From Candidatus Poseidonia sp. (lineage in GTDB: Archaea; Thermoplasmatota; Poseidoniia; Poseidoniales; Poseidoniaceae): 64,000 nt of DNA. Below the pieces are notes generated by a model. That model was not told the origin of the DNA. It was given only the letters and a program-made list of their open reading frames with translations, and did no database searches. Both the position numbers and the translations under genes were made by a program. Position 1 is the first letter of the stretch. Every line of letters begins with the position of its first letter. Where the stretch lies: NCBI GenBank assembly GCA_030829545.1, contig JAURAI010000005.1, positions 76,088 to 140,087 on the forward strand, read 5' to 3'. Below are positions 11,747-46,390 of this stretch, one piece after another.

Positions 11747-13300
11747 TCACAGTGGGATGTTGCCGTGCTTACGAGCAGGGCGTAATTCTTCTTTATCCAT
11801 CAGCATTTCAAGTGCACGAGAGAGGCGTTGCCGTGTCTGGTTGGGCTCAATAACATCGTCGAGGTAGCCGAGGGCAGCCGCCTTGTAGGGATTCGCAAAG
11901 GTCTCCTTGAAGTCTTCAGTGAGACGCTCTCGTTCTTGATCTGGATTTCGGGAATGCGCAATGCGGCGGCGGTGAATAATTTCCACAGCCCCGTCTGCAC
12001 CCATGACTGCTAATTCTGCAGAGGGCCATGCTACATTGTAATCGCCACGGATGTGTTTGCTGGACATGACGTCGTATGCGCCACCGTAGGCCTTGCGTAA
12101 GATGACCGTGAGTTTGGGGACGGTGGCTTCTGCAAAGGCATAGAGGAGTTTCGCACCGTGACGAATGATTCCACCCCATTCTTGATTGGTGCCGGGCAAG
12201 AAACCGGGTACGTCTTCAAAGGTGAGAATGGGGATGTTGAATGCATCACAAAATCGAACGAATCGAGCAGCTTTATCACTCGCATCAATGTCAAGACATC
12301 CTGCGAGAACTTTGGGTTGATTTGCTACAATACCCACCGTATGGCCGCCGAGATGTCCAAAGCCAATCACGATATTTTGAGCCCATTCGGCCTGCACTTC
12401 CATGAAGCCACCGTCGTCGAGTACCTCACGAACGACATCAACTACATCGTAGGGTTTTGAGGAATCATCTGGAATGATCGAGTCCAAAGCGTCACACAAA
12501 CGGTCCTTGCTATCCGATGTTTTCTTCATCGGGGGACGCTCCAAGTTGTTTTGAGGCAACAAGTCACAAAGGTCACGGGCCATTTGAATCGCATCTTCAT
12601 CATCTCCTGCCGTGAAATGGGAGACTCCTGATTTTGACCCGTGAGTGGCTGCACCACCAAGGTCTTCGAAACTGACAACTTCATTGGTGACCGTCTTGAT
12701 CACTTCTGGACCGGTGATGAACATGTGAGCGGTTTGATCAACCATGATCACAAAGTCCGTGATAGCGGGTGAATAAACCGCACCACCTGCACAAGGCCCC
12801 ATGATGACCGATATTTGTGGTACGACACCTGAAGCTCGAACATTGCGGAAGAAAATTTCAGCATAGGAGCCGAGAGACGCTACGCCTTCTTGGATACGCG
12901 CCCCACCTGAATCGTTGAGCCCTATGACTGGTCGGCCTGTTTTGAGAGCCATGTCAAGAACCTTGCAAATTTTGAGCCCGTGCATTTCTCCCAAAGACCC
13001 ACCGTAAACGGTGAAATCTTGTGCAAATGCGAACACCTCACGTCCGTTGATGGTGCCGTGTCCCGTTACAACACCGTCTCCTGGAATGACGTTCTTGTCC
13101 ATATCAAAATCACGACAACGATGTTCTACCAACGCGTCAATTTCTTGGAAACTACCATGGTCAAGGAGCATGTCCATGCGTTCCCTGGCAGTCATTTTAC
13201 CACGATTGTGCTGCGCATCAACACGCGCTTGTCCGCCTCCTGCCTCACTACGTGATTTGCGATTTCGGAGGTCTTTGAGTCGCTCATCTGTGCTTGCCAT
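11747..13300 (-). CDS. pccB: propionyl-CoA/methylmalonyl-CoA carboxylase carboxyltransferase subunit
   Basis: 517-aa ORF with carboxyltransferase motifs: '[32 protein letters not shown]', '[20 protein letters not shown]', '[48 protein letters not shown]'. Confidence 0.93.
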
Positions 13301-31196: not shown

Positions 31197-31700
31197 ATGG
31201 GAGGTGGAGGAGCGGCTCCGAAAATGAAGATGAGTGATGCGCTCATTTTGACTGGAGTCACCATCCTCGTAGGCTCCTTATTCATGCACGCCTGGGTCAC
31301 ACCCATACAAATCAATGGAGAAGATCCACCCTACACCAATGGGGCTTCAATGATGAATGGTGACGTCTTTGTGATGAACCTCGCCGTGGTCAATGAATCA
31401 ACCGTTCGCTTTGTATTGTATGATGAAAGCGACAGCATCGTTGATGCAGAAACTGTGACCTTGGCCAGCGGCGGAGAGGTTGAGCAACGGTATGAGATTT
31501 CAGAAGGCGGGTATTACACCTATGAAATCGACACGAAGGGTGGAGATGGTACCCTTGAAATTGATATCGAGCGGAAGTACATGATTGACATGCTCCCCTT
31601 CCCAATTGGAGGCTTTTTGTTAGCCTATGGACTCTACCAGCGAGATGATGAAGGAGACGAAAACGAATCTGAAGTGCTCGATGCAGAATTAGATGCTTGA
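31197..31700 (+). CDS. membrane protein with two TMs and an extracellular beta domain
   Basis: ORF in track begins at TTG 31131; ATG 31197 (MGGGGAAPKMKMSDALILTG) preferred. Confidence 0.55.
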   Translation: MGGGGAAPKMKMSDALILTGVTILVGSLFMHAWVTPIQINGEDPPYTNGASMMNGDVFVMNLAVVNESTVRFVLYDESDSIVDAETVTLASGGEVEQRYEISEGGYYTYEIDTKGGDGTLEIDIERKYMIDMLPFPIGGFLLAYGLYQRDDEGDENESEVLDAELDA

Positions 31701-33167
31701 CCAAACCAATGCATCAGGGTCGTCCACGAGCAGGTTATTTTCACGAACAGTGACCAGCAACTGACCTTCTTCATCCATGCCCGAATACGCTACCTTTTCA
31801 TTTCTATAGAAAAGGGGCCCTAGGTTTGATTCGGCTTGCCTTACCTCGCGATTGAGGTCGTCAAGATAGAACCGGTGTTCACCTAAGCATGCATTCACCG
31901 TCGGATCAAAAAGAGAGGCGACCATTGCATGCAAATGTTCCATGAGTTGGAGTTGGTTGACGCTGGGGAGTGCGTCGAGAAGCGAGCCATAGGGTTTGGA
32001 AGCGACAAGGTTGAGACCTAAGCCGAGAACGATGCGGTGTTTCTTGCCCGAAGACCGTGCTTCGAAGAGAATACCCCCGAATTTTTGCCAGCCTTCGGAT
32101 GACCGAAGAAATAAGTCGTTGGGCCATTTCAAACATATGAACTCAGAATGTTCTGCTGCGTATGTGCGCAAAAGTAACTGAACATGATGCCCCACGAGCA
32201 ATTGATGCATGGTTGAATGAGACATGCCACCATCCAAGGCCACCACCCAGGAGGCCATGACGGCTTGTTCGGGAGAAGTCCATGACCTCCCCCTCCTTCC
32301 TCTCCCTTTGGATTGATGGTCGGCGCTGACTCGTGAACCAAGACCGTAGGTGGAATTCAGAAGGTACGCATTGGTGCTTTCGAGGGTTGGGTGGTGTTCA
32401 ACCGTTGCCTTTGGAAATGGGCGCCACAAAGCGAGAGCACTGAGAACTTCACCCTCTTCAAATTGACATTGCCCAACGACACGTGCTGCGAAGCCCTTTC
32501 GCCAAGCGAGAGGCATTGCACGGTCACCGATTCCAAGATTTGAGACGATAACATAAGCTCGCCCACCTGGCCTGAGCAGCTGGCCGGACTCAAGAAGGTT
32601 GAGAAAACGTGCATACAATCCTACATCATCGGTATCGATCATGGCCGCCTCTTCAAGGGGGCCGAGAACAGGCTCTCCCGGCTTTGGAGGAGACAGGTAG
32701 GGCATGTTCCACATCACGACATCGTAGCGTTCATCCCCCATCCATTGTTTGGGTAGACCGTCTTGTAGAGGACCCGGCCCTCCTTCTCGAACCCTGATGG
32801 CGTAACCGTATTTTTCTGCATGGCCTTTGGTGCAAGCAACCGCATATGGGTTGATGTCACAGGAGGTTACCGACCAGCCAAGACTTGCAGCAAAAAGAGA
32901 GACTGCTCCTGCTCCACAGCCAATTTCAAGTGCTTTGGTTTGCGAAGAAAGGTGTGCCTTGTTGATGACATGAGCGAGAAGGTTGGTATCTTCCCGAGGT
33001 CCGTAGACAGTGGGGAGAAGATCCAAGTCAAAGCGCTGACCAATGGGTGAGTTCCAACTGACCGTTTGAGCGGGTCGTTCGAGGCGCTCAATTTCTGCTT
33101 CGGCATCTGCCTCTTCAAAGTGATGAGGCCCTCTCATGAATCCCCCGAAGGGTGCTCCCATCATCAT
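31689..33167 (-). CDS. fusion: HemK/PrmC-like methyltransferase + BirA-type biotin-protein ligase
   Basis: 'YGPREDTNLLAHVI', 'ALEIGCGAGAVSLFAASLG', 'NMPYLSPP' followed by 'LESTNAYLL', 'SKGRGRRGRSWTSP', 'KWPNDLFLR', 'IVLGLGLNL'. ATG 33167 preferred over 33311. Confidence 0.8.
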   Translation of the reverse strand: MMMGAPFGGFMRGPHHFEEADAEAEIERLERPAQTVSWNSPIGQRFDLDLLPTVYGPREDTNLLAHVINKAHLSSQTKALEIGCGAGAVSLFAASLGWSVTSCDINPYAVACTKGHAEKYGYAIRVREGGPGPLQDGLPKQWMGDERYDVVMWNMPYLSPPKPGEPVLGPLEEAAMIDTDDVGLYARFLNLLESGQLLRPGGRAYVIVSNLGIGDRAMPLAWRKGFAARVVGQCQFEEGEVLSALALWRPFPKATVEHHPTLESTNAYLLNSTYGLGSRVSADHQSKGRGRRGRSWTSPEQAVMASWVVALDGGMSHSTMHQLLVGHHVQLLLRTYAAEHSEFICLKWPNDLFLRSSEGWQKFGGILFEARSSGKKHRIVLGLGLNLVASKPYGSLLDALPSVNQLQLMEHLHAMVASLFDPTVNACLGEHRFYLDDLNREVRQAESNLGPLFYRNEKVAYSGMDEEGQLLVTVRENNLLVDDPDALVWSSI

Positions 33168-33290
33168 TCTATGCCCGTACCAATCCGTATAAATGTGCGA
33201 TTTTTGGCGAATAGAACACTTCTTAGGGAGGCCATCTATTGGATCATCACTGGCAGGGTGCGGAGCGCATGGCTCAATTGCATCCCGAAA

Positions 33291-33300
33291 CGTATAAGAA
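33291..33300 (+). promoter_or_regulatory. putative TATA box upstream of tRNA-Lys/RNAP genes
   Basis: 'cgtataagaa' about 40-48 nt upstream of the mature tRNA 5' end. Confidence 0.45.
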
Positions 33301-33339
33301 CACCATGTCATTCGGACGAAAAGCCCAAGTTGCTACATT

Positions 33340-33413
33340 GGGCCTGTAGCTCAGTCAGGTAGAGCGTCGGACTTTTAATCCGATGGTCGCGGGTTCGAAC
33401 CCCGTCAGGCCCG
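33340..33413 (+). tRNA. tRNA-Lys (anticodon TTT at 33374-33376)
   Basis: Cloverleaf read by hand: acceptor GGGCCTG/CAGGCCC, anticodon arm TCGGA-CTTTTAA-TCCGA, T-arm GCGGGTTCGAACCCCGT. Confidence 0.95.
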
Positions 33414-33464
33414 CCTGACAACGCTACTGGCCTTGCGTAGTGGGGCGTTCGCGGGGGTAACGAA

Positions 33465-34115
33465 ATGGTAGTAAAGAGTGCAACGAAAAAGCGGTTAATG
33501 GAACTCGGCGTTTCAGAAGAATACTCCCACAAACTTGCAACCGACCGCAACATGACCGACATCAAGAACATGTCTCACGACGATGTCGCCTCAACCCTTG
33601 GTATTTCCAAGGACGCTGAGGAATTCATTACCACCATGCAAATTATCGCTGAACAAGGCTCACGCCGCCGAGCAGCAAAGAAGAGCACGAAGATCACCAT
33701 TCGAGCCAAGGCCGTCGACGACATGGACCGTCCAGAAATCACGTCCCGTTTCAACGCCCTCAACCACGAACTCGTCCCCCACCAAGAACTCGTTGGGCCT
33801 GCAAATGTCTCTCCCGAGGAGCAACTCGCCATTGAAACTGAAGAACTCGCCCCCTGGCGAATGATTCAGCCAGACCCCGAAACTGGCGAGGACCGCTTGG
33901 CAAAGGAACTCCTGCCAAAAATTCTCATTACCGACCCCGTTGTCCAGGTTATCAAAGAAGTAGCCGAATCAGAAGACAACGCCCATCTCCAAGCAAATCC
34001 AGACCACAGGCCATTGGCTGCTGGCTGGATTGCCGACCGTGTGCTGAAGGTCATTCGCCGCTCCCCGTCGGCCGGCCAAAGTATTGCGTACCGGCTTATT
34101 GTGGAGGGGAACTGA
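33465..34115 (+). CDS. rpoH: RNA polymerase subunit H (Rpo5) with N-terminal extension
   Basis: 'NHELVPHQELV...LLPKILITDPVVQVI...ADRVLKVIRRSPSAGQSIAYRLIVEGN' is RpoH-like; located directly before rpoB. Confidence 0.88.
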   Translation: MVVKSATKKRLMELGVSEEYSHKLATDRNMTDIKNMSHDDVASTLGISKDAEEFITTMQIIAEQGSRRRAAKKSTKITIRAKAVDDMDRPEITSRFNALNHELVPHQELVGPANVSPEEQLAIETEELAPWRMIQPDPETGEDRLAKELLPKILITDPVVQVIKEVAESEDNAHLQANPDHRPLAAGWIADRVLKVIRRSPSAGQSIAYRLIVEGN

Positions 34116-34127
34116 GGAGAGGATACC

Positions 34128-37100
34128 ATGCAAGAAATCATTCAAGCATTTTTCAAAGAACGCAGTTTGGTCAACCACCAACTCGCATCATACAACGACT
34201 GTATCCCTGCATCTGAATCCGCACTCTCACGCATGGAGAGCATCATTCGTAACATCCGTGTAGGAACCGATGAAGACTTCGACGACGACGAAGGAGGATA
34301 CATCAAACTTGACGTTGCTGAGCAAGACATTGTCATTCGATTGAAGAATGTCAAACTTGGGCAACCCACTGTCAAGGAAGCAAACGGCGCACTCAATCCG
34401 TCCACGCCGATGGAATGCCGCCTGCGCAAGCTCACCTACATGTCTCCTGTCACTATCGACTTCACCATCAAGCGCAACGGTGTTCCCTCACCAACCGAAA
34501 CTGGCGTAGCCGTCGGCAACATGCCGATCATGGTCCGTTCAGAGCGATGCAATCTCCACGCCAAGCACATCGCAGGTGACCGCGTCCTCAGCCCGACAAC
34601 ATCCGATGAAGACAAAGCTACCTGGCATGAAATGCTCCGAAAGAAAGGCGAAGACCCGCTTGACCCAGGTGGCTATTTCATCATCAACGGAACCGAGCGT
34701 GTCCTCATTTCTATGGAAGACCTTGCACCCAACCGCGTGACTGTCGAAATCAACAAGCGCTACGCCAAGCAAACCGAAGTCGCTAAAATTTTCTCACAGA
34801 AAGATGGTATGCGAAAGCCCTTGACTGTTGAGAAGCGCCGTGACGGTATGCTGATGGTCAAAATCAGTACTGCTGGCACCACTGCGATCCCTGTCGTCAT
34901 GCTCATGCGCGCACTCGGCGTAGAGAATGACCAACAAATTTTCCAAGCTATCGCTGGAAACACGGATTCCTTCAAGTTCATCGTGGCAAACATCAACGAA
35001 GTCAACGATAACGAGGAATACAAAGTCGTGACCAGTGAAGAAAGCCACCAATGGCTTGAGAAGAAATTCGCTGCTGGCCAGCAAAAGGAATACCGTGAAG
35101 CACGTGTTAACCAATTGCTCGACCGTGAATTGCTACCTCACCTTGGTGACCAAGCTGAAGACCGTGAAAAGAAGGCCATCTACCTCGGCCGTATCGTTCG
35201 TCAAGTTCTCGAAATGGCCATTGAAGGTCGTGACCCCAACGACAAGGACCACTACGCAAACAAGCGTGTTCGCCTTGCAGGTGACTTGATTGAAGACTTG
35301 TTCCGTGTTTCAGCAGGACAACTCGCTCGTGACCTCAAGTACCAACTCGAGCGCCACCACAACCGCAAGCGGGAACTCAAGATTACATCCTGTCTTCGAC
35401 CCGATGTTCTCACTTCGAAAATCATGCACGCACTCGCCACAGGAAACTGGGTCGGTGGACGTTCTGGTGTCAGCCAATTGCTTGACCGGACGACCTACCT
35501 TGCTGCTCTTTCACACATGCGACGTGTTACCTCACCATTGGTTCGCAGCCAGCCTCACTTTGAAGCTCGTGACCTGCACCCAACACAGTGGGGACGACTT
35601 TGCCCCAACGAGACCCCTGAAGGTCAAAACTGTGGCCTGGTCAAGAATGCTGCTCAAATGATTGACATCTCTGAAAACATTGACGAGGTCGAAATTCGTG
35701 AGCGACTTGACGAACTTGACGTCTATCAGCCCGATGACTGGACTGATGGTGATCGAATCCACGTTAACGGCGACATCTACGGAATTCACAAGCGCGGTGT
35801 CAAACTCGTTGACCACTTCAAGTCTGCACGCCGCCGTGGTGTCATTCCTTCCGAAGTATCAATCCGCCATGATGCTGAGAACAAGGACATTTTCATCAAC
35901 ACCGACAAAGGCCGAATCCTTCGCCCTCTCCTGATTCTCTACGATGGTGCCCCACGATTGACACAAGACCACCTTGCACGCCTTAACAACGGTGAGATGA
36001 ACTTCCGTTCACTCGTCATTGAAGGTGTCGTCGAATGGGTCGATGCCGAGGAAGAAGAAGACCTCTACATCGCTCCACGGCCCTTTGTCCTCCCTGAGAT
36101 GGTTCCAGAAGGCGACTCCGCTGGTCTAGCCGGCCGGGTCATCAAGCACGAAGACATCGAATGGATGAACCTTGGTCAACCACAAGCCGAGGTTGCTCAC
36201 CTCCGTGCAAACGTCTGTCTGCCAAACGGCACATGGGAAAGCACTGAATTTGACGTGCCCTTGGAATACACTTCCGAACACACACACTGTGAGATCGACC
36301 CACAACTCGTCCTCGGCGTCTGTGCTTCGCTCATCCCGTACCCCGAGCACAACTCAACACCTCGTGTCACAGGTGGTACGGCCATGGTCAAGCAATCACT
36401 CGGTTTGCCCAGCGCCAACTACCGCATGCGCCCCGACACACGAGCACACATCTTGCACTACCCACAACGCTCCATCACCAAAACACGAGCAATGGCCACT
36501 ACGAACTTCGATGACCGCCCTGGTGGTCAGAACTTCATCGTCGCCATCATGTCCCTCCACGGATACAACATGCAAGACGCTGTTATCATGAACAAAGGAT
36601 CCATTGACCGTGCACTCGGACGTTCTACCTTCAACCGCACCTACAACGCAGAACGACGTCGTTTCCCTGGCGGTCAAGTTGAAGAAATCGAAAAGCCCGG
36701 CAGCTCCAAGCAAGAAATCAAAGGACTCAAGACTCCTGAAGCTTACATGCATCTTGAGGCAGACGGATTGCCCGTTCCTGAAACATCCCTCGAAGGTGGT
36801 AATGTATTGGTTGGAAAAACCAGTCCTCCACGGTTCCTCGAAGAAACATCCGGTGGCGCCTTTTTGATGGCTCAAGAACGCCGTGAATCATCCATGCTTG
36901 TTCGCCACGGCGAGAAAGGATGGGTCGACAACGTTTACGTGACTGAATCACTTGATTCCGGCCGTCTTGTCCGTGTCATGGTTCGAAGCCACAAAGTTCC
37001 TGAAGTGGGTGATAAGTTTGCATCCCGTCACGGACAAAAGGGTGTCATTGGACGCTTGGTTGAACAAGAAGACATGCCGTTCACTCAAGACGGTGTGGTT

Positions 37101-37741
37101 CCTGACCTCATCATCAACCCGCACGCCATTCCATCACGAATGACCGTTGCACACGTTCTCGAAATGATCGGCGGTAAAGTCGGTGCAATGGAAGGACGTC
37201 GTATTGACGGTACAGCATTCCGTGGTGAGAAGGAATCCAGCCTGCGCGACGGATTGGTTCGCAACGGCATGGACCATACAGGCCGTGAGATGATGATCAA
37301 CGGAGAAACTGGCGAGGCATACCCCGCCGATATCTTCGTCGGATGTATCTTCTACCAGCGACTCCACCACCTTGTGAGTTCCAAGATTCACGCTCGCTCT
37401 CGTGGCCGTGTTCAAATCCTCACCCGCCAACCAACCGAAGGTCGTGCCCGACAAGGTGGTCTTCGATTCGGTGAAATGGAACGTGACTGTCTTATCGCAC
37501 ACGGTGCATCAATGGTCATCAAAGACCGATTGTTGGATGAATCGGACGGTATTGACATGTATGTCTGTGCTCAATCAGGTCACATCGCTTGGTACGACCC
37601 CAAGCGTGGCACCTACGTCAGCCCAATACACGGGGATGGCGCTGAAGTCTACAAGGTGCAGACTTCATATGCATTCAAGCTCCTCCTAGACGAAATGAAG
37701 AGTTTAGGAGTGGCCATGCGCCTTGAACTGGAGGATCGAAA

Positions 37742-37745
<4 letters not shown>
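34128..37745 (+). CDS. rpoB: DNA-directed RNA polymerase subunit B
   Basis: 1205-aa ORF: 'GYFIINGTERVLISMEDLAPN', 'LCPNETPEGQNCGLVKN', 'GDKFASRHGQKGVIGRLVEQEDMPFTQDGVVPDLIINPHAIPSRMTVAHVLEMIGGKVG'. Confidence 0.98.
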
Positions 37746-42495
<4,750 letters not shown>

Positions 42496-42895: not shown

Positions 42896-45800
42896 ATGCG
42901 AAGCACTTCCTATGCGACTGCATTGACTTTGACCGCGCTCCTCCTCGTGAGTTTCATCGGTACAGCGACTTTCCAAGCCCCCGATGCGATTCCAGCATTA
43001 CAAGATGATGAGAAGCCTTCGACGACATCAGGCCGTTCAACTTCACCCGAAGTATTCCTCTCAAGTGGAGGCACGAGCACACACGATGAATTCTCAGGCT
43101 CTATTGAAGCATCTGATAACGGATATTTTGTTGGTGGCGACTTCAATTCTTCAGCCCAATCGATTACTTTTGGAACTCAGTCCTTCCAATCCACATCACC
43201 CTTCTCGAACGGAAATGAATTTTATCTCGCATCAGCAGACAACAGCGGCAACTGGAATTTCCTCATCGGGGCAGACCACACTCAAGGCGGTGTTACCTTC
43301 CTTTCTGATGTGGACTCGAATGCAGGGATGCCCTATGTGGCAGGTTCAATGTACGGACCGGTCAGTTTTGGTCAAACCACACTCTCGACAAACGTGATTG
43401 ATGGATTCATTGCTTCAGCCGATCCAACCGGCACATGGATGTGGGCAACAGCCTTCCAGACCCTCGCTAATTCTTCAACCGATACCAGTTCACCACAGGC
43501 CATGGCAGTGGATACCCTGGGTGACGTCGTTGTTGCGGGCTACTTTTCAGGCGAGACTGATTTTGGTGGAACCATCATCAATGTTTCAAATCAAGAAATG
43601 TTCGTCGCCAAACTCGACGGCATGAACGGGGCGCTCAAGTGGGTGGTGAGTGGTGGAGGTATCGGCCCACAATCAGTAACTGATGTCATCATTGATGCAA
43701 ACGGGGACATTCACGTAGCAGGCTTGACCCAAAACAATGTTCTCTTTGGCACCACCAGTTACAACATCGTTGGAACCCAGGATTCTTTCATACTCAAACT
43801 CTCAAGCAGCGGCTCCATCCAAAGCATCACAGGATACGGTATTGCAAATCAAGCCGTCACCTTGTCCAACCTCGCACTCGACGCTAACGGAGATCTCTAC
43901 GTCGGCGGGTCATTTGAGGGGACCATGGCCAAGAATGGATGGTCCATAACCGCAAACAAAGGTGGCTCTGACCTCTTTTTCATCAAAGAAGGCTCGACAC
44001 CCTCCAATCAATGGGCTGCAATCGGTGGTTCAAGTGCAGGCGACGGCCTCGAAGGCATGGAAGTCACTTCTCGTGGTGAAGTCATATTCACATCCTTCTT
44101 CGTTGATGGAACCTTCAGTGGAGGTACAAAATCCATTACTGGAACCTCCAGCAGTTGGGCGAATATCAACGCTGATGTTCTCGTTGGAGGGCTCAGCAGT
44201 TCGGGAGGTTGGGCCTGGCTTGATGTAACTGGAAGCACAAGTCTCGAAGTTGGATGGGACCTTGCAGTCAATTCATCTGATATCGTATCGGTGATTGGTT
44301 CCTTCGCCGGCCCGAGTCCAGCCACCATCACCAAGGACACCACGACCGTAACAAGCACAGGTGGTTGGGATGTCTTTGTTTGGGCCATGGACCCCTCGAA
44401 GAAAACCGACAGTGATGCTGATGGAATCCCTGATGTAAGTGATAATTGCCCCAATGTGGTCAACCCAGGACAAGGAAATACCGATGGTGACAGTCAAGGC
44501 GATGCTTGCGATTCAGATGACGACAACGATGGAATCACCGATAATTCACCTGATGATTGTCCCCGAGGAGGCCAAGCAAATTGGGCCTCAACACAGGACT
44601 TTAACGACCCTGCCAATTCATCGGATTGGGACCGAGATGGTTGCCTAGACAGTTCTGAAGACAGTGATATTGACAATGATGGGATCTCCAACGATGTCGA
44701 CTCATGCCCCCGTTCAGCCTACCAACCCCCTCGCCCGACATGGCAGTCTGACTCGATAACCGATGTCGACGGCGATGGATGCCGTGATGCAGACGAGGAC
44801 AGTGATGACGACGGTGACGGCTTTGATGACGTCAGTGACGATTGCCCCACGACGGTTGGCACTTCCACCTTAGGCGAGGAAGGTTGCCTTGACAGTGATG
44901 GCGATGCATGGTCAGATAATTTCGATGACTGCCCGAATCAGGCAGGTAATTCTACACTGGGCGGCAAGAATGCTTGTCCAGATCAGGATGGAGATGGTTG
45001 GGCTGACGTTGATGACGCCTTTGTGAACGAGTCCAGTCAATGGAGCGATGCTGACGGTGACGGCTATGGAGACAACCCCGAAGGCATCACCCCTGATGAT
45101 TGCCCTGCCGTTTCTGGTACGTCAACCCTCGACCGAATGGGTTGCCTTGACAGCGATGGAGACGGATACTCAGATACCGACTCGATGTGGTCTGCAGAGG
45201 ACGGTGGCGACGCTTTCAGAGAAGACCCAACGCAATGGTCCGACTTTGATGAGGATGGTTTTGGAGATAACTGGGGCAACCAGACATGGGACGACCGTAA
45301 TCCATCATGGCCTGGAGAATACCGTGCGGATATTCTTTCCCAAGATGCATGTCCAACCCAAGCCGGAACATCATGGCAAAACGGAATGACAGGATGTCCC
45401 GACCAAGATGGTGATGGATGGTACAACCTTCAGGACGCCTTCCCCAACGAGCCGACGCAATGGGCTGACGGAGATGGTGACGGATATGGCGACAACCCCA
45501 CTGGCGTTGATGCTGATGCCTGCCCACTCCTCGCAGGAACCTCGACAGAGGACCGCCTGGGATGCAAAGACGGTGACGGTGACGGTTATTCTGACCCAGA
45601 CCCAGACCGCAATTGGTTCCCCGGCAATGGAGCCGATGCGTTCATGGCAGACCCAACACAATGGTCCGACCAAGACCTTGATTTCTATGGGGACAACCCA
45701 GAGGGACAGAATCCGGATGCATGTCCAACCCTCCTCGGCACCTCCACGGTTGACCGGTTCGGATGTGTAGACAGCGACGGAGATGGCATCTCGGATGCCG

Positions 45801-46390
45801 ACAGCACCTGGACACTTGAGAACGGTGCTGATGCATGCCCGCTGGCATACGGAAACTCGACGGCGGACCGTCTTGGTTGCGATGACACAGACGGGGATGG
45901 TTATTCTGATGAAACCGATGATTGGGGCTTGGACATGGGTGCTGATGCCTATCCAAAAGATCCGACACGATGGATTTTGGAGCCTCAAGATGAAGAGAGT
46001 CTGATGGCTTCCTCCACGGTCTTGATTGGCGGTGGAGTAGGACTGGTTGTAGTCTTAGCCTTGGTTGGCATCCTCATGCGACGTCGCAATGGCGACGAGG
46101 TAAAGCAGTGGGATCAAGAAGCACCGGTGGCCATGCCCGATTTCAGTGCGCAGCCTGGAATGTATGGTCAGCCACCCACTCAGAGTTATGCACAACCAGC
46201 TGCGCAGTACAATCCCGCTCAAAGCGTCGTACAACCCGCAGCAGTAGCACAACCCGTTGCCACACAGCCAGGTCCAGCAGTGCAACCTGATCCCGCACGA
46301 GATTACTACAACAGTTTGCTTGCGCAAGGATATCCCCCTACAGACGCCATGCGATACACCCAGCAGTACTACGGACATTTCCAGGGCTAA
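42896..46390 (+). CDS. giant surface protein: SBBP-like beta-propeller repeats + thrombospondin type-3 repeats + TM + Pro/Gln-rich cytoplasmic tail
   Basis: Signal peptide; 'VDTLGDVVVAGYFSGETDFGG' type repeats; DSDGDGxxD repeats; TM 'VLIGGGVGLVVVLALVGILMRRR'; tail with QPxxQ repeats. Confidence 0.8.
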   Translation: MRSTSYATALTLTALLLVSFIGTATFQAPDAIPALQDDEKPSTTSGRSTSPEVFLSSGGTSTHDEFSGSIEASDNGYFVGGDFNSSAQSITFGTQSFQSTSPFSNGNEFYLASADNSGNWNFLIGADHTQGGVTFLSDVDSNAGMPYVAGSMYGPVSFGQTTLSTNVIDGFIASADPTGTWMWATAFQTLANSSTDTSSPQAMAVDTLGDVVVAGYFSGETDFGGTIINVSNQEMFVAKLDGMNGALKWVVSGGGIGPQSVTDVIIDANGDIHVAGLTQNNVLFGTTSYNIVGTQDSFILKLSSSGSIQSITGYGIANQAVTLSNLALDANGDLYVGGSFEGTMAKNGWSITANKGGSDLFFIKEGSTPSNQWAAIGGSSAGDGLEGMEVTSRGEVIFTSFFVDGTFSGGTKSITGTSSSWANINADVLVGGLSSSGGWAWLDVTGSTSLEVGWDLAVNSSDIVSVIGSFAGPSPATITKDTTTVTSTGGWDVFVWAMDPSKKTDSDADGIPDVSDNCPNVVNPGQGNTDGDSQGDACDSDDDNDGITDNSPDDCPRGGQANWASTQDFNDPANSSDWDRDGCLDSSEDSDIDNDGISNDVDSCPRSAYQPPRPTWQSDSITDVDGDGCRDADEDSDDDGDGFDDVSDDCPTTVGTSTLGEEGCLDSDGDAWSDNFDDCPNQAGNSTLGGKNACPDQDGDGWADVDDAFVNESSQWSDADGDGYGDNPEGITPDDCPAVSGTSTLDRMGCLDSDGDGYSDTDSMWSAEDGGDAFREDPTQWSDFDEDGFGDNWGNQTWDDRNPSWPGEYRADILSQDACPTQAGTSWQNGMTGCPDQDGDGWYNLQDAFPNEPTQWADGDGDGYGDNPTGVDADACPLLAGTSTEDRLGCKDGDGDGYSDPDPDRNWFPGNGADAFMADPTQWSDQDLDFYGDNPEGQNPDACPTLLGTSTVDRFGCVDSDGDGISDADSTWTLENGADACPLAYGNSTADRLGCDDTDGDGYSDETDDWGLDMGADAYPKDPTRWILEPQDEESLMASSTVLIGGGVGLVVVLALVGILMRRRNGDEVKQWDQEAPVAMPDFSAQPGMYGQPPTQSYAQPAAQYNPAQSVVQPAAVAQPVATQPGPAVQPDPARDYYNSLLAQGYPPTDAMRYTQQYYGHFQG

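Follow-up and report, generated by a model that had tools for sequence, protein, structure and literature searches.

A helix-hairpin-helix-like N-terminal domain shared by RpoH and RpoA'' of Poseidoniales RNA polymerase, a candidate pair of docking modules

The window, a 64,000-nucleotide stretch of DNA from Candidatus Poseidonia (Marine Group IIa; the order Poseidoniales is the Marine Group II of abundant marine archaea), carries an RNA polymerase (RNAP) operon in the order tRNA-Lys, rpoH, rpoB, rpoA', rpoA'', followed by a reading frame read as ribosomal protein eL30 (Table 1). The two frames between rpoH and rpoA'' we take to be rpoB and rpoA', on the grounds of family knowledge and gene order. 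RpoH matched the Rpb5 C-terminal family PF01191 at residues 145-212 (E = 3e-8; 33.7 bits against a cut-off of 23.5), and the best Foldseek matches of its model were archaeal RpoH chains; its score against the NCBIfam equivalog PRK09570 (38.9) was under the cut-off of 83. RpoA'' passed the TIGR02389 cut-off of 420.65 with 421.9 bits. Three insertions, of about 9, 12 and 21 residues, set the Poseidoniales Rpb5 core (33744-34112) apart from that of other archaea; the last of them is shorter in Thalassarchaeaceae. Beside the operon, a 540-aa frame on the reverse strand (31689-33311) combines a methyltransferase (residues ~109-204) with a biotin/lipoate protein ligase (320-434) in an apparent gene fusion. 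On the 3' side of the operon, a forward-strand frame (42896-46390) is predicted to encode a surface protein of 1164 aa with DxDxDG-type (thrombospondin type 3-like) repeats.

Table 1. Features of the RNA polymerase locus, in window coordinates
Feature	Position	Strand	Basis or remark
tRNA-Lys	33340-33415		upstream end of RNAP operon
rpoH (Rpo5), extended form, 216 aa, ATG start	33465..34115	+	PF01191, Foldseek
RpoH N-terminal module, (HhH)2/SAM-like by prediction, residues 1-62	33465..33650	+	BLASTP, hhalign, AF2, Foldseek
RpoH linker, residues 63-93, net charge +4, partly disordered, strongly conserved	33651..33743	+	pLDDT, pN/pS
Rpb5 C-terminal (assembly) domain, canonical apart from lineage-specific insertions	33744..34112	+	PF01191; alignment with MGIII and other RpoH
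rpoB (presumed), undivided, between both module-bearing genes	34128..37745	+	ORF list, gene order
rpoA' (presumed)	37742..40933	+	ORF list, gene order
rpoA'' (Rpo1C), 520 aa	40933..42495	+	TIGR02389, 421.9 bits
RpoA'' N-terminal module, (HhH)2/SAM-like by prediction, residues 1-62	40933..41118	+	BLASTP, hhalign
RpoA'' linker, residues 63-110, net charge +5	41119..41262	+	charge count

The sequence-only reading had proposed that the N-terminus of RpoH is homologous to that of RpoA'', and this was borne out. The two N-termini aligned by BLASTP with 29 of 67 residues identical (43% over 67 aa; E = 1e-13), and profile-profile comparison with hhalign gave a probability of 99.7% over residues 1-62. 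The N-terminal sequences proved exact as quoted, and the hand count of 24 identities in the first 42 residues was reproduced. Beyond about residue 63 the homology is lost; the interval originally given for the module, 33465-33620, is correctly placed and slightly short, the true end lying near 33650. Across the first 42 codons, 76 of 126 nucleotides and 10 codons are identical. A recent duplication of the DNA is not supported, as synonymous codons have diverged and the likeness is at the protein level. No known domain in Pfam or NCBIfam matched the module.

In the AF2 model of whole RpoH the module forms a separate confident unit, and pLDDT drops below 50 at residues 68-78. No alignment was obtained between the RpoH and RpoA'' linkers, and a linker homology suggested by an RAKxV motif seen by eye was not borne out. 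Across 16 Poseidonia RpoH genes, mean pN/pS was 0.11 for the module and 0.06 for the linker, compared with 0.17 for the Rpb5 core; such slow protein evolution argues that module and linker both have a function. Because the codons of the module are under strong purifying selection, translation must begin at the annotated ATG and not at a later codon, and a misannotated start, which had been raised as a possibility, was rejected. These values also bear on the view that the RpoH extension is a passive by-product, a 5' end kept for expression or stability and devoid of specific function. Both copies do begin at the start codon, so that a duplication could bring a translation start with it, but the low pN/pS of module and linker, found order-wide, largely refutes this explanation, which we regard as highly improbable.

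A profile built from Poseidoniales modules (A1) matched in 123 of the 146 genomes of the class Poseidoniia. In most of these genomes there were exactly two, one in a frame of about 220 aa (RpoH) and one in a frame of about 520 aa (RpoA''). All genomes of the class without a match lie outside Poseidoniales except two, G093 and G099; these were rejected as module-less members of the order, as neither assembly contains rpoH or rpoA''. Wherever a Poseidoniales assembly includes these genes, both modules are present in essentially all cases. The profile had no match in the sister order MGIII and no convincing match in the remaining Thermoplasmatota, where the best-scoring sequence was an RpoA'' that itself has a related start domain (G315; E = 0.005). 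Outside Poseidoniales, RpoH is canonical and short in the Thermoplasmatota sampled, MGIII included; a long RpoH frame in G268 proved to be spurious, shadowing a gene encoded on the other strand of GC-rich DNA, and has no module. An assembly or binning artefact was rejected, as more than 100 loci carry the module, among them one on a complete chromosome (L060) and others in single-cell-style assemblies. Within the Thermoplasmatota sampled, the RpoH extension is therefore specific to Poseidoniales. Conservation among relatives, for which the sequence-only reading had suggested a check, was found: the module is kept in related genomes. Its premise that RpoH of archaea is normally without a domain of this kind agrees with the rest of Thermoplasmatota and with the published description of archaeal RpoH as having no N-terminal extension (PMC3906176).

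AF2 modelled the module alone as five helices with a mean pLDDT of 87 (predicted helices in RpoH: 6-14, 18-24, 30-34, 38-45 and 52-65). Foldseek against the PDB returned FANCM-FAAP24 as the best match (probability 0.92), together with RadA, NusA, UvrC, Rad51 and SAM domains, at E-values that are non-significant taken alone (best 0.72 for the 69-residue model), the domain being short. A phylum-wide profile of the module family (A5) matched topoisomerase V (2.2e-14, a score summed over several weak repeats), NusA (5.8e-5), Rad51 (0.0019) and XPF (0.006), with FAAP24 also present; the Poseidoniales-only profile A1 found no relative in the PDB, and Pfam HHH_5 detected one member only (E = 0.035). 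Judged by the AF2 model, Foldseek and the phylum-wide profile, the module is predicted to be a divergent (HhH)2/SAM-like domain, in keeping with the helical, helix-hairpin-helix-like character first read from the sequence. Its hairpins carry GxS/GxD instead of GxG, and the second glycine is almost always absent (position 17 is G in 1 of 54 H modules and 0 of 47 A'' modules). The modules are also slightly acidic, with net charges of -2 and -3. Given the missing second hairpin glycine and this acidity, the module may have moved to protein binding, and we infer that the modules are no less likely to pair with protein than to bind DNA directly.

The same features weigh on a reading in which the modules grip downstream DNA directly, like bacterial alphaCTDs or Rpo13. 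The (HhH)2 relatives topoisomerase V, XPF and UvrC bind DNA, the linkers are basic (+4 and +5), a KSxTKK segment is invariant, and a lysine-rich tail of Rpo13 lies at the corresponding site (PMC2675907). However, classical HhH backbone binding is disfavoured by hairpins without their second glycine and by the net acidity of the module, and we consider a direct grip somewhat unlikely.

N-terminal extensions of RpoA'' were found across the phylum Thermoplasmatota. Many of these proteins, in MGIII and in over ten further families, begin with a sequence of the type MAKKDTxxALxKRGLSxxxAEKLAxxxTLxxLKK. By hhalign, the start domains of other-Thermoplasmatota RpoA'' matched the Poseidoniales modules of H with 94% probability (score 38) and of A'' with 73% (score 27), where column-shuffled controls gave at most 6% and a score of at most 16.5; RpoA'' start modules matched tandem canonical HhH on the A'' of other families with 96%. 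Two or three such tandem canonical HhH (PF14520) occur at the RpoA'' N-terminus in several Thermoplasmatota families (loci L170, L171, L216, L217, L219, L237, L238, L200 and L207). In MGIII and many other Thermoplasmatota, RpoA'' has an N-terminal domain of ~120 residues that is apparently beta-rich (L172, L175-L180 from MGIII, L184-L187, L204, L206, L209, L213-L215, L218, L220, L222 and L231). Sequence comparison of the beta-rich domain with Pfam and the PDB found no relative, and a guessed EVE/PUA-like identity was not confirmed. A similar decoration, an N-terminal HhH_5, was seen on ribosomal protein eL32 of other Thermoplasmatota (L279-L282).

In a tree of the modules, those of Poseidoniales H and A'' were united (100/100) apart from the rest, and within them the H group (85/66) and the A'' group (92/89) each contained both families, Poseidoniaceae and Thalassarchaeaceae. 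With a different sampling, an earlier tree did not resolve H, which lay around A'', and one of the two trees roots inside H, probably through a long-branch effect. Concerted evolution of the two copies is unsupported, as H and A'' cluster separately across both families. Because related start domains sit on RpoA'' in many other Thermoplasmatota families, RpoA'' probably had the module, or a close relative of it, first, the innovation being the RpoH copy. The original description of a module duplicated on two RNAP subunits thus holds as to the two copies; they are not equally new, the RpoA'' version being widespread in Thermoplasmatota. The simplest history, with the direction of copying read from the distribution, is a single rpoA''-to-rpoH duplication in the Poseidoniales stem. 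The module or a close relative would already have stood at the RpoA'' N-terminus before Poseidoniales arose. A copy of the 5' end of rpoA'' would then have been joined to the 5' end of rpoH, about 7.5 kb away in the same operon, after the MGIII split and before Poseidoniaceae and Thalassarchaeaceae separated. Strong selection has kept both copies since, as the sequences show.

The module is not confined to the two polymerase subunits: a third, non-RNAP protein has such a domain too. This protein of ~362 aa (L278; contig C16 of genome G000, about 12127-13212), also present in most Poseidoniales sampled, opens with a similar module, starting MAKKDTYLALLRRGID, and continues with a coiled coil, after which comes what is probably a Zn ribbon (CPxCG...CWxCE); no Pfam family matched it. 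It lies in a pus10-like/eL21/rpo4/DUF655/ksgA cluster, before xseA. The modules on the polymerase could accordingly serve to recruit a Poseidoniales-specific factor, for example this protein from the rpl21e-rpo4-DUF655-ksgA cluster, or the ribosome. With a wider profile the third protein appears in nearly all Poseidoniales sampled, it adjoins rpo4 and ksgA in the genome that the window comes from, and the NusA repeats offer an instance of protein-binding HhH domains. Genomic neighbourhood is weak evidence, however, and the module of the third protein clusters with modules from outside Poseidoniales, apart from those of H and A''; we think recruitment of such a factor unlikely.

From what is known of the Rpb1 split site, the N-terminus of A'' presumably belongs to the foot/cleft region of Rpb1. 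The downstream-DNA entry is the site of the eukaryotic Rpb5 jaw and of the Rpo13 of Sulfolobales (PMC2675907), and the shelf module of the polymerase consists of the Rpb1 foot and cleft with the Rpb5 domains (PMC8268151). From the former we infer that the RpoH N-terminus, and with it the H module, would lie near the downstream-DNA entry, where the Rpb5 jaw and Rpo13 sit; the A'' module, by homology, would share the shelf module with Rpb5. H and A'' each bear a tethered copy of the module. Since paralogous domains are tethered to neighbouring subunits, the analogy suggests that they pair, as in XPF-ERCC1, or bind a shared factor. Most likely the H and A'' modules would dock there, either onto each other or onto a partner that both bind, the basic linkers and the invariant KSxTKK segment lying near the DNA, and the outcome would be that downstream DNA is steadied or a factor recruited. 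To the whole account, an RpoA''-derived copy on RpoH and two tethered docking modules at the downstream-DNA side, with their putative function, we assign a probability of about 0.5.

In one version of docking, the H and A'' modules would form an intramolecular (HhH)2 heterodimer that bridges the subunits, as an assembly aid or as a bracket over downstream DNA. Consistent with such pairing, two paralogous copies sit on two subunits of one complex, the top Foldseek match is a heterodimer (FANCM-FAAP24), XPF and FAAP24 emerged in the profile search, and NusA-alphaCTD (2jzb) provides a precedent for HhH domains that pair inside transcription complexes. Against it, the A'' module of other Thermoplasmatota has no H partner, which argues that pairing is not the ancestral role, and SAM and RadA folds match the module as well. 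We view the heterodimer as possible but tentative. Its extension, an independently evolved bracket over downstream DNA formed by the H and A'' modules as a third solution beside the Rpb5 jaw and Rpo13, strikes us as rather doubtful.

Searches of the freely accessible full-text literature found mention of neither an N-terminal domain on archaeal RpoH nor an HhH on RpoA'', and a 2026 survey of the small subunits of archaeal RNAP, which treats Rpo6 and Rpo8, contains no description of the RpoH domain (PMC13257274). The rule that RpoH is the Rpb5 C-terminal domain only is broken by a whole order of abundant ocean archaea, probably by means of a domain copied from another subunit of RNA polymerase itself. 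Poseidoniales would thereby offer a natural experiment in domain gain by multisubunit RNA polymerases, in a phylum where N-terminal HhH-type domains on RpoA'' are widespread. At the site of the Rpb5 jaw and Rpo13, eukaryotes, Sulfolobales and Poseidoniales appear to have added different parts.

Like the Poseidoniales module, the eukaryotic Rpb5 jaw is an N-terminal addition to the conserved Rpb5 C-terminal domain on the downstream-DNA side (PMC2675907, PMC3906176). In contrast to the module, the jaw measures ~130-140 residues, and no sequence similarity was found between the two; Pfam Rpb5_N did not match RpoH, and the Foldseek alignment of the RpoH model with eukaryotic Rpb5 (about 116 columns, at low query coverage) is consistent with the C-terminal domain only. 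Rpo13 of Sulfolobales differs in being a separate helix-turn-helix subunit, not homologous as far as tested. Topoisomerase V, XPF-ERCC1, FANCM-FAAP24, the RadA/Rad51 N-terminus and UvrC resemble the modules in helix pattern, fold and distant profile similarity, whereas the modules lack the GxG of classical (HhH)2 domains and are attached to RNA polymerase subunits. Bacterial alphaCTD and the acidic repeats of NusA are likewise of HhH type, on or binding RNAP through a flexible tether, with two alphaCTD per enzyme, but they involve other subunits, act on the upstream side in bacteria and are not orthologous. Other Thermoplasmatota share such a domain at the corresponding end of RpoA'', with tandem HhH (PF14520) or a beta-rich domain there instead in some families, whereas the copy on RpoH sets Poseidoniales apart.
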